Below, in pieces: positions 14,866 through 17,620 of a stretch of DNA of 64,000 bases. Source of the stretch: Vicinamibacterales bacterium. Lineage in GTDB: Bacteria; Acidobacteriota; Vicinamibacteria; Vicinamibacterales; 2-12-FULL-66-21. Each line of letters starts with the position of its first letter. The stretch's first letter is position 1. Both the position numbers and the translations under genes were made by a program. The notes below the pieces were generated by a model. That model had not been told where the DNA came from. It did no database searches and saw only the letters and a program-made list of their open reading frames with translations. The stretch lies in NCBI GenBank assembly GCA_035699745.1, contig DASSPH010000070.1, positions 1-64,000 of the forward strand, read 5' to 3'.

Positions 14866-16737
14866 CTACAACTCCACCTGCACGCCCAGCTCGACGACGC
14901 GCTCCGGCGGCAGGCGGAAGAACGCCGTGGCGCGGCCGGCGTTGCGCGCGATCAGGACGAACAGGCGCTCGCGCCAGGGCGCCATGCCTGGCGCGCGGGT
15001 CGCGATCAGCGTTTCCCGGCCGAGGAAATAGGTCACGTCCGACTGGTCGATCACCAGCCCCCGATCGGACGCCTGCAGCAGCGCGGCCGGCACGTCCGGA
15101 TCTTCCATGAACCCGTAGGTCAGCGTCAGCTCGAAGACGCCCGCGCCCAGCTCGCGCACGGCGCAGCGGTCCGTTTCCGGCACGTGCGGCACCGGCTTGG
15201 TGACCACCATCAGGATCACCACGTGCTCGTGCAGTACTTTGTTGTAGCGCAGGTTGTGCGCCAGCGCCGCCGGCGTGCCCTTCGGCTGCGCCGTCATGAA
15301 CACCGCGGTGCCGGGCACGCGCGCCGGCGGATGCTCGACGATGTGCGTCATGAACGTCTCGAGCGGCACCGCGCGGGCCATCAGCCGATCCGCGACCAGG
15401 CGCCGGCCGGTCTTCCAGGTCGTCATCAACGTGAAGATCCCCCACCCGATCACCAGCGGCAGCCAGCCGCCGTGCGCGATCTTCAGCACGTTCGCGCCGA
15501 AGAACGCCAGATCGATGACGAGGAACGCGCCGGTGACCGCCGCGGCGACGGCAGCCGGCCAGCGCCAGCGCTCGACCGCGACGACGTACAAGAGCACCGC
15601 GGTGATGACCATCGTCAGGGTGACCGCGATCCCGTACGCCGCCGCCAGCGCGGTCGACGATCCGAAGCCGATGACGATCAGAATCGTGCAGATCATCAAC
15701 GCCCAGTTCACCTGCGGCACGTAGACCTGTCCGATCTCCTCCGACGACGTGTGCGAGATGTCGAGGCGCGGCGAGAAGCCGAGCTGGATGGCCTGGCGGG
15801 TCAGCGAGAAGGCACCCGAGATCAGCGCCTGGGAGGCGATGATCGCCGCGGCCGTGGCCAGGCCGACCAGCGGATACAGCGCCCATGACGGCGCCAGCAG
15901 GAAGAACGGCTGATGCGCTGCGGCCGGGTCGAGGATCAGCAGCGCGCCCTGGCCGAAATAGTTCAGCAGCAGCGCCGGCAGCACGAGGCCGAACCACGCC
16001 AGGCGGATCGGCCGCTTGCCGAAGTGCCCCATGTCCGCATAGAGCGCCTCTCCGCCGGTGACGACCAGGAACACGGCGCCGAGCACGGCGAAGCCGTGCA
16101 GCCGGTGCGCCTCGAAGAATCCCACCGCGTGTCGCGGATCGACGGCGGTCAGCACGATCGGCGCGCGCACCAGCCACACGATGCCGAGAATCGCGATCAC
16201 GACGAACCAGACGACCATCACCGGGCCGAACAGCGTGCCGACCCTGGCGGTGCCGTGGCGCTGAATCGCAAACACGGCGACGAGGATGGCGACGGTGACG
16301 GGCACCACGAACCGGTCGAACAGCGGCGTCGCGATCTTCAGTCCCTCGACGGCGCCGAGCACGGTGATCGCCGGCGTGATCATGCCGTCGCCGTAGAGCA
16401 GCGCGGCGCCGAAGATCCCCATCATCACCAGCAGCGGCCACTTCGGCTGGTTCGGCGACCGCTGCGGCAGCAGCGCCGTCAGCGCCAGGATCCCCCCCTC
16501 GCCCTGGTTGTCGGCGCGCATCACGATGGCGATGTACTTGATCGAGATGACGATCAGGAGCGAGTAGATGATGAGCGACAGCACGCCGAGGACGTTCGCC
16601 GCGGTCGCCGGCACCGAGTGGGAACCGAAGAAGCATTCCCGCATCGCGTACAGCGGGCTGGTGCCGATGTCGCCGTACACGACCCCCACGGCAGCGAGCG
16701 TCAACGGCAGGAGTGGACGGCGGACGCCGGTCGACAC
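14866..16737 (-). CDS. kup: Kup-type potassium uptake protein
   Basis: The 623-residue protein has about twelve transmembrane helices in the first 450 residues and a cytoplasmic C-terminal domain. The opening VVYGDIGTSPLYAMRECFFG and the RADNQGEGGILAL loop are hallmarks of the KUP/HAK/KT family, which imports K+ with protons. The start is GTG at 16737, with GGAGGG at 16743-16748 on the coding strand. The leader contains a c-di-AMP riboswitch whose 3' edge lies about 15 nt from the start codon, so expression is very likely shut down when c-di-AMP, and therefore K+, is high. Confidence 0.96.
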   Translation of the reverse strand: MSTGVRRPLLPLTLAAVGVVYGDIGTSPLYAMRECFFGSHSVPATAANVLGVLSLIIYSLLIVISIKYIAIVMRADNQGEGGILALTALLPQRSPNQPKWPLLVMMGIFGAALLYGDGMITPAITVLGAVEGLKIATPLFDRFVVPVTVAILVAVFAIQRHGTARVGTLFGPVMVVWFVVIAILGIVWLVRAPIVLTAVDPRHAVGFFEAHRLHGFAVLGAVFLVVTGGEALYADMGHFGKRPIRLAWFGLVLPALLLNYFGQGALLILDPAAAHQPFFLLAPSWALYPLVGLATAAAIIASQALISGAFSLTRQAIQLGFSPRLDISHTSSEEIGQVYVPQVNWALMICTILIVIGFGSSTALAAAYGIAVTLTMVITAVLLYVVAVERWRWPAAVAAAVTGAFLVIDLAFFGANVLKIAHGGWLPLVIGWGIFTLMTTWKTGRRLVADRLMARAVPLETFMTHIVEHPPARVPGTAVFMTAQPKGTPAALAHNLRYNKVLHEHVVILMVVTKPVPHVPETDRCAVRELGAGVFELTLTYGFMEDPDVPAALLQASDRGLVIDQSDVTYFLGRETLIATRAPGMAPWRERLFVLIARNAGRATAFFRLPPERVVELGVQVEL

Positions 16738-16752
16738 GAGGACCCTCCAATT

Positions 16753-16892
16753 CCGCCGCCGGGGTTAGCTGACGGGCTCGAGGTTGGAAGTCCTCTACCA
16801 GCTTACCCGTCCGCGCCCGCGGCGCGCCGGCGGAACGGCTGGATACGCCCCACTAGTGGGTCCCCCGTGGCGCCGCGCGGCGCCCTAGGCGT
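16753..16892 (-). ncRNA. c-di-AMP riboswitch (ydaO/yuaA type) in the kup leader
   Basis: Read on the minus strand, this stretch carries both conserved cores of the ydaO/yuaA riboswitch in order. GGGGGACCCA (16857-16866) is followed by a short loop, GGGGCG and TATCC. Near the 3' end comes CGAGCCCGTCAGCTAACC (about 16763-16780), then CCCGGCGGCG. The outer CGCC near 16888-16891 can pair with GGCG near 16753-16758 as P1. Riboswitches of this class bind two c-di-AMP molecules and usually turn off K+ importer or cell-wall genes. Position directly before kup fits well. The aptamer ends about 5 nt from the Shine-Dalgarno sequence and I see no separate terminator stem, so control may be translational. 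Confidence 0.9.
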
Positions 16893-16963
16893 TGTCGTCC
16901 ACTATCGTAGCGCCGATTGGCGCCCGGCGTGCAAGGGGAACTCAGCAGGAGGTCGTGTCGGGC

Positions 16964-17620
16964 ATGTTCAAGGCGAACGGGCTCTCGATCGTGCTCATCG
17001 CGCTGTTTCTCGTCACCATGGGCGGCCAGGCGGTGACCGGCTGGAAGGCGCACAACCAGGATCTGCTGGATCACGGGCGGGCGCCGGCCCCCTTCGCAGC
17101 CTATCTCGGCAGCGGACACTTCCTCGAAGCGACGGGCGAGAACTGGGAGAGCGAGTTCCTCCAGATGGCGCTCTTCGTCCTGCTGACGACGTTTCTCTAT
17201 CAGAAGGGATCGGCGGAGTCGAAGCGTCCGTCGGTAGTGGAAGAGGTGGATCTGGATCCGCGGCGCTTCCAGGACGACCCGGAGGCCCCCTGGCCGGTGC
17301 GCCGCGGCGGGTGGCTCCTCCGCGTCTACGAGCACTCGCTGGGCCTCACGTTCGTGATCCTGTTCTTCCTCTCGCTCTGGATTCACGCCGCCGGCGGCCT
17401 GCAGGAGCTCAACGAGGAGCAGCGCGCGCACGGCCAGCCCGCCGTCTCGATGACCGAGTACGTCGGCGGCGCGCAGTTCTGGTTCGAGTCGTTCCAGAAC
17501 TGGCAGAGCGAGTTCCTCTCGCTGGCGGCGATGGTCGTCGGCACGATCGTCCTGCGCCAGCGCGGGTCGGCGGAGTCGAAACCGGTCCACGCCTCGCACC
17601 GCGACACCGGTCGGGCCTAG
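16964..17620 (+). CDS. DUF6766-like membrane protein with internal duplication
   Basis: The protein has 218 residues and about four transmembrane helices. Two segments repeat the same pattern: ENWESEFLQMALFVLLTTFL...QKGSAESK (about 60-90) and QNWQSEFLSLAAMVVGTIVL...QRGSAESK (about 180-210), each preceded by a helix starting in Ile/Val/Leu. The linker between them is acidic and hydrophilic. I recall this arrangement from DUF6766 proteins; no activity is known. AGGAGG at 16947-16952 supports either the ATG at 16964 (11 nt) or an in-frame GTG at 16955 (2 nt); the ATG is more natural. Divergent from the riboswitch-controlled kup. Confidence 0.75.
   Translation: MFKANGLSIVLIALFLVTMGGQAVTGWKAHNQDLLDHGRAPAPFAAYLGSGHFLEATGENWESEFLQMALFVLLTTFLYQKGSAESKRPSVVEEVDLDPRRFQDDPEAPWPVRRGGWLLRVYEHSLGLTFVILFFLSLWIHAAGGLQELNEEQRAHGQPAVSMTEYVGGAQFWFESFQNWQSEFLSLAAMVVGTIVLRQRGSAESKPVHASHRDTGRA

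Follow-up and report, generated by a model that had tools for sequence, protein, structure and literature searches.

The stretch of DNA upstream of this kup gene raises the question of how a c-di-AMP riboswitch can control a potassium transporter when very little room is left between its aptamer and the start codon. The window, by which we mean the whole 64 kb stretch (64,000 nucleotides) of the Vicinamibacterales contig, was compared with all Rfam families (cmscan, gathering cut-offs), and the single match was RF00379 (c-di-AMP, ydaO/yuaA) on the minus strand. This match is full length (model positions 1–134 of 134) and scores 59.9 bits (E 2.2e-11), well over the curated cut-off of 38 bits (Table 1). 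Both conserved cores, GGGGGACCCA...UGGGGCGUAUCC and CGAGCCCGUCAGCUAACCCCG, are present, as is the closing stem P1, in the Rfam alignment and the sequence. An earlier note on this DNA had called a ydaO/yuaA riboswitch on the kup strand at 16753–16892 and proposed an RF00379 search of the minus strand; the search bore out the call, and the interval is essentially the aptamer from P1 to P1. A minimum-free-energy fold of the GC-rich kup leader did not show the aptamer (z −0.6). Judged by its score, cores, P1, the pseudoknot described below and a cyclase gene in the same genome, the element is a member of RF00379; its binding of c-di-AMP would be expected from the family.

The gene that directly follows is a genuine kup (PF02705, E 4.3e-186; PF22776, E 1.3e-49), in agreement with the direct control of kup that the note had proposed. 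On the other side, a DUF6766 membrane protein is encoded divergently at 16964–17620 of the plus strand (E 6e-92). Only about 60 bp separate the start of its gene from the riboswitch 5′ end, so both promoters have to fit into a very short common stretch. The kup mRNA probably starts just upstream of the aptamer. A promoter scan of the leader region found none; by eye, a weak candidate can be picked out, and many relatives show TTGAC and TA-rich hexamers at its place.

Table 1 Features of the riboswitch–kup locus, in window coordinates
Feature	Positions	Strand	Basis
kup, K+ transporter of 623 aa; GTG start at 16737–16735	14866–16737	−	PF02705, PF22776
c-di-AMP riboswitch aptamer, full RF00379 match	16739–16901	−	cmscan
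P1 5′ strand, CGCC	16888–16891	−	RF00379 alignment, sequence
P1 3′ strand, GGCG	16754–16757	−	RF00379 alignment, sequence
Last hairpin of the aptamer, GAGG-ACUUCCAA-CCUC	16780–16795	−	RF00379 alignment, sequence
Pseudoknot loop strand CUUCCAA, putative anti-Shine-Dalgarno role	16784–16790	−	7 bp to 16750–16744; covariation, 60 relatives
Pseudoknot 3′ strand UUGGAGG, also the kup Shine-Dalgarno	16744–16750	−	sequence; loop/tail covariation, 60 relatives
Possible promoter, weak, TTGCAC - 19 nt - TACGAT	16904–16934	−	by eye, sequence alone

The loop of the last hairpin is complementary over 7 bp to a strand that starts 3 nt past P1. This strand contains GGAGG (16748–16744), which stands 6 nt before the GTG, and the pseudoknot strand is thus the kup ribosome binding site. 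The note had placed the ribosome binding site about 5 nt past the aptamer as an element of its own, which has to be corrected, as it begins 3 nt after P1 and coincides with the 3′ strand of the pseudoknot. By sequence and covariation, the ribosome binding site would belong to the ligand-stabilised structure of the aptamer, which is the criterion for a riboswitch that occludes the Shine-Dalgarno (SD) sequence.

We consider it quite probable that the riboswitch represses kup translation by drawing the SD sequence into the aptamer pseudoknot. When c-di-AMP is plentiful, as it would be with ample K+, the aptamer would fold around its ligand and P1 would close; CUUCCAA would then pair with UUGGAGG, so that the 30S subunit would be blocked, less Kup made and K+ uptake lowered. 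When c-di-AMP falls, the pseudoknot would open and translation could begin at the GTG. We infer ligand binding, the OFF direction and the ligand dependence of the pseudoknot from the family. The computed duplex energies, which ignore loop constraints, are −9.0 kcal/mol for loop and SD and −9.8 kcal/mol for SD and the anti-SD of 16S rRNA; the two duplexes are close competitors, so the degree of repression is not predictable from them. Taken alone, the window sequence is weak evidence for the pairing, as 906 of 20,000 shuffled tails equal the loop/SD match. What weight the proposed pairing carries comes from comparison across relatives.

We therefore turned to 60 riboswitches from 53 genomes of the host order, 61 from the rest of the phylum, and a further set from other named taxa with 95 unique loop/tail pairs, and scored the best ungapped helix between loop and tail (G-C 3, A-U 2, G-U 0.5). 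The mean score in the host order was 16.1, as against 14.26 (sd 0.26) with exchanged tails and 15.10 (sd 0.22) when the exchange was kept to sequences sharing a target-gene class; in either case, no shuffle out of 2000 attained the observed value. Likewise, 0 of 2000 did so in the rest of the phylum (15.29 versus 12.58, sd 0.32) and in the other named taxa (13.57 versus 12.19, sd 0.24). These counts should not be read as probabilities, because each sequence was scored in its most favourable register, part of the loop was prescribed by the search pattern used for the named taxa, and the sequences share ancestry. Typical partners are CUUCCAA with UUGGAAG or UUGGAGG, CUUCCG with CGGAAG, CUCCA with UGGAG, and UCCCA with UGGGA. 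Counted from the stem, the second position of the loop pairs as A-U in 39 cases, G-C in 13, C-G in 4 and G-U in 3. The pseudoknot strand carries a purine-rich, SD-like motif at every one of the 60 loci of the host order. The pseudoknot is also present in relatives whose start codon is distant. At a number of mostly planctomycete loci (L090, L092, L113, L114, L146 and similar ones), an extra hairpin stands between P1 and the 3′ strand of the pseudoknot, with the complement GAAAG or UUGAAAG after it; the short-tail helix score underrates these loci.

The arrangement downstream of the pseudoknot differs between the groups. A close start, defined as a start codon that opens a frame of 80 codons or more and lies 2–15 nt past the pseudoknot strand, was found at 53/60 loci in the host order, 5/61 in the rest of the phylum and 16/104 in other named taxa (6%, 1% and 3%, respectively, in upstream control windows). 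Terminator-like hairpins within 200 nt showed the reverse distribution, at 1/60, 32/61 and 24/103 loci, with 1, 1 and 3 in shuffled sequence. In the window, a scan of the minus strand from 16500 to 17200 found no terminator-like site, as the note had also seen, and a terminator for the kup leader was dropped from consideration. From close starts and scarce terminators together, the host order appears to have a terminator-less translational OFF platform where its relatives often use terminators. We find it likely that the whole order has swapped the usual terminator for this built-in platform, in which the pseudoknot strand is the SD sequence. Its targets would then include no fewer than four kinds of gene, namely kup and those for KimA-like permeases, a further APC permease family and SPFH proteins. 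The translational control that the note had proposed is thus supported by comparison; the device, a loop that pairs with the SD sequence, it had missed.

By sequence motif, the 60 targets in the host order comprise 22 KimA-like, 17 Kup, 14 members of another AA_permease_2 family and 5 SPFH genes, with 2 in no motif class, one of which (L049) translates into another Kup; for representatives, domain searches gave the same classes. At L036 (G025:C139), a single contig carries two c-di-AMP riboswitches spaced by about 4 kb; one precedes a KimA-like gene, the other a different APC permease gene. A DAC match was obtained in 51 of the 53 host-order genomes that carry the riboswitch. The two with no DAC-domain match are G081, rated 98% complete, and G026, and either an assembly gap or another source of c-di-AMP could account for them.

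The host genome itself, an assembly of 6.3 Mb in 110 contigs with a completeness rating of 100%, contains a single DAC-domain gene. It encodes a 266 aa protein (DAC, E 3.3e-39) with a CdaA N-terminal domain and is followed by a YbbR/CdaR-like gene. The diadenylate cyclase that the note expected from the riboswitch is thus present, and neither of the two findings that the note would have taken as a refutation, a missing covariance-model match or a missing cyclase gene, came about. The gene preceding the cyclase gene looks, by eye, like one for dihydropteroate synthase. The genome may also encode a phosphodiesterase, in the form of a stand-alone DHH-DHHA1 protein, although NrnA-type nucleases share both domains. 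The genome also has a second RF00379 copy on another contig (54.6 bits; G000:C99:162985-162817, L003 1669-1501), upstream of an SPFH/Band-7 gene and similarly arranged: the loop ACUCCAA can form 6 bp with the tail CUUGGAGG, which is followed after 6 nt by a GTG. Four other genomes of the order likewise have an SPFH gene as riboswitch target. Downstream of the SPFH/Band-7 gene are apparent genes for RDD and SpoIIM-type membrane proteins. A second kup copy (G000:C61:25079-26437) has no riboswitch before it; a search for a decayed one with RF00379, up to E 1, gave no match there. TrkH was sought in the host genome and gave no match. With one kup under a riboswitch, one free of it and no TrkH match, K+ uptake may rest on a regulated and an unregulated Kup.

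Could the riboswitch instead act mainly on transcription, with Rho terminating the untranslated mRNA, or through a terminator invisible to our scan, the translation block being secondary or absent? Transcriptional control is the usual mode of this class (PMC6488665), terminators are frequent in the same phylum, and Rho could still act once translation is blocked. We nevertheless regard this as unlikely, because the window leader lacks a terminator-like site, the one case among 60 in the order is at the level of shuffled sequence, and hardly any space separates the aptamer from the start codon. A slightly weaker candidate is that the loop/tail pairing only stabilises the aptamer, that its overlap with the SD sequence is incidental, and that P1, beside the start site, is what blocks the ribosome. 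The occurrence of the pseudoknot far from start codons fits such a role, and so does the end of P1 3 nt before the SD strand, but an SD-like motif on the paired strand in 60/60 and a start at SD distance in 53/60 of the order argue against coincidence.

Very improbable, in our estimate, is an aptamer that has decayed or been re-purposed and has lost c-di-AMP sensing. The window aptamer does score below most relatives and departs from the consensus at a few positions (GCCUAG for GCcgAA, GCGUAU for GUGAAU); however, its match is full length and far above the cut-off, the same letter changes recur in relatives, and a K+ transporter as target goes together with a cyclase in the genome. Repression of kup translation through an SD-sequestering pseudoknot is accordingly the reading we favour, at the grade given above.

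Earlier publications cover the aptamer class, its use of kup as target and the pseudoknot, as well as translational control in the case of Corynebacterium nlpC. c-di-AMP riboswitches upstream of kup have been predicted in several phyla (PMC6488665). In the literature we found, translational control by a c-di-AMP riboswitch is experimentally backed in one organism, with its mechanism only proposed; among titles and abstracts joining c-di-AMP, riboswitch and Acidobacteria, we found no treatment of the present platform. What we add is good comparative sequence evidence for a mechanism that others had suggested and that we did not find demonstrated in the literature covered. If the platform is as we propose, the host order would be a second lineage, backed by covariation, for the mechanism suggested in Corynebacterium. 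Many natural variants with concerted changes in loop and SD strand are also available within the order, so that a compensatory-mutation test could be designed from the alignment. c-di-AMP signalling is little studied in Acidobacteria, and our results suggest for this phylum a c-di-AMP regulon that takes in Kup, the KimA-like and other APC permeases, and SPFH membrane proteins.

Among known systems, the terminating type of ydaO/yuaA riboswitch, as in B. subtilis kimA and B. thuringiensis kdp (PMC6488665), is like the window RNA in aptamer sequence and structure and in having a K+ transporter as target, whereas the window RNA has no terminator and runs straight into the ribosome binding site. 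In the crystallised Thermovirga lienii ydaO aptamer (4QLM/4QLN), the last hairpin pairs through its loop with the tail past P1, CUCCUUCG with CGAAGGAG (PMC5393176). We therefore rejected the idea that the loop/tail pseudoknot is new in itself; the pairing is the same, but the T. lienii RNA was studied as an aptamer only. A review lists ydaO under interdomain docking, together with docking-type translational switches (PMC10907184), in which the ribosome binding site is likewise covered by a pseudoknot or docking contact, although ligands and aptamer folds are different. A counterpart in mode of control is the C. glutamicum nlpC riboswitch, for which translational repression was reported and a pseudoknot with the ribosome binding site proposed by the authors (PMC9960051). 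Both RNAs lack a terminator, and among the other taxa the loci with a close start include three (L093, L100, L161) whose records bear the titles Actinobacteria, Acidimicrobiales and Actinomycetes, in keeping with that report. The nlpC target, however, is a cell-wall peptidase in an actinobacterium and the window target is kup; and while the pseudoknot was a proposal there, covariation of loop and SD strand is seen here across many relatives.
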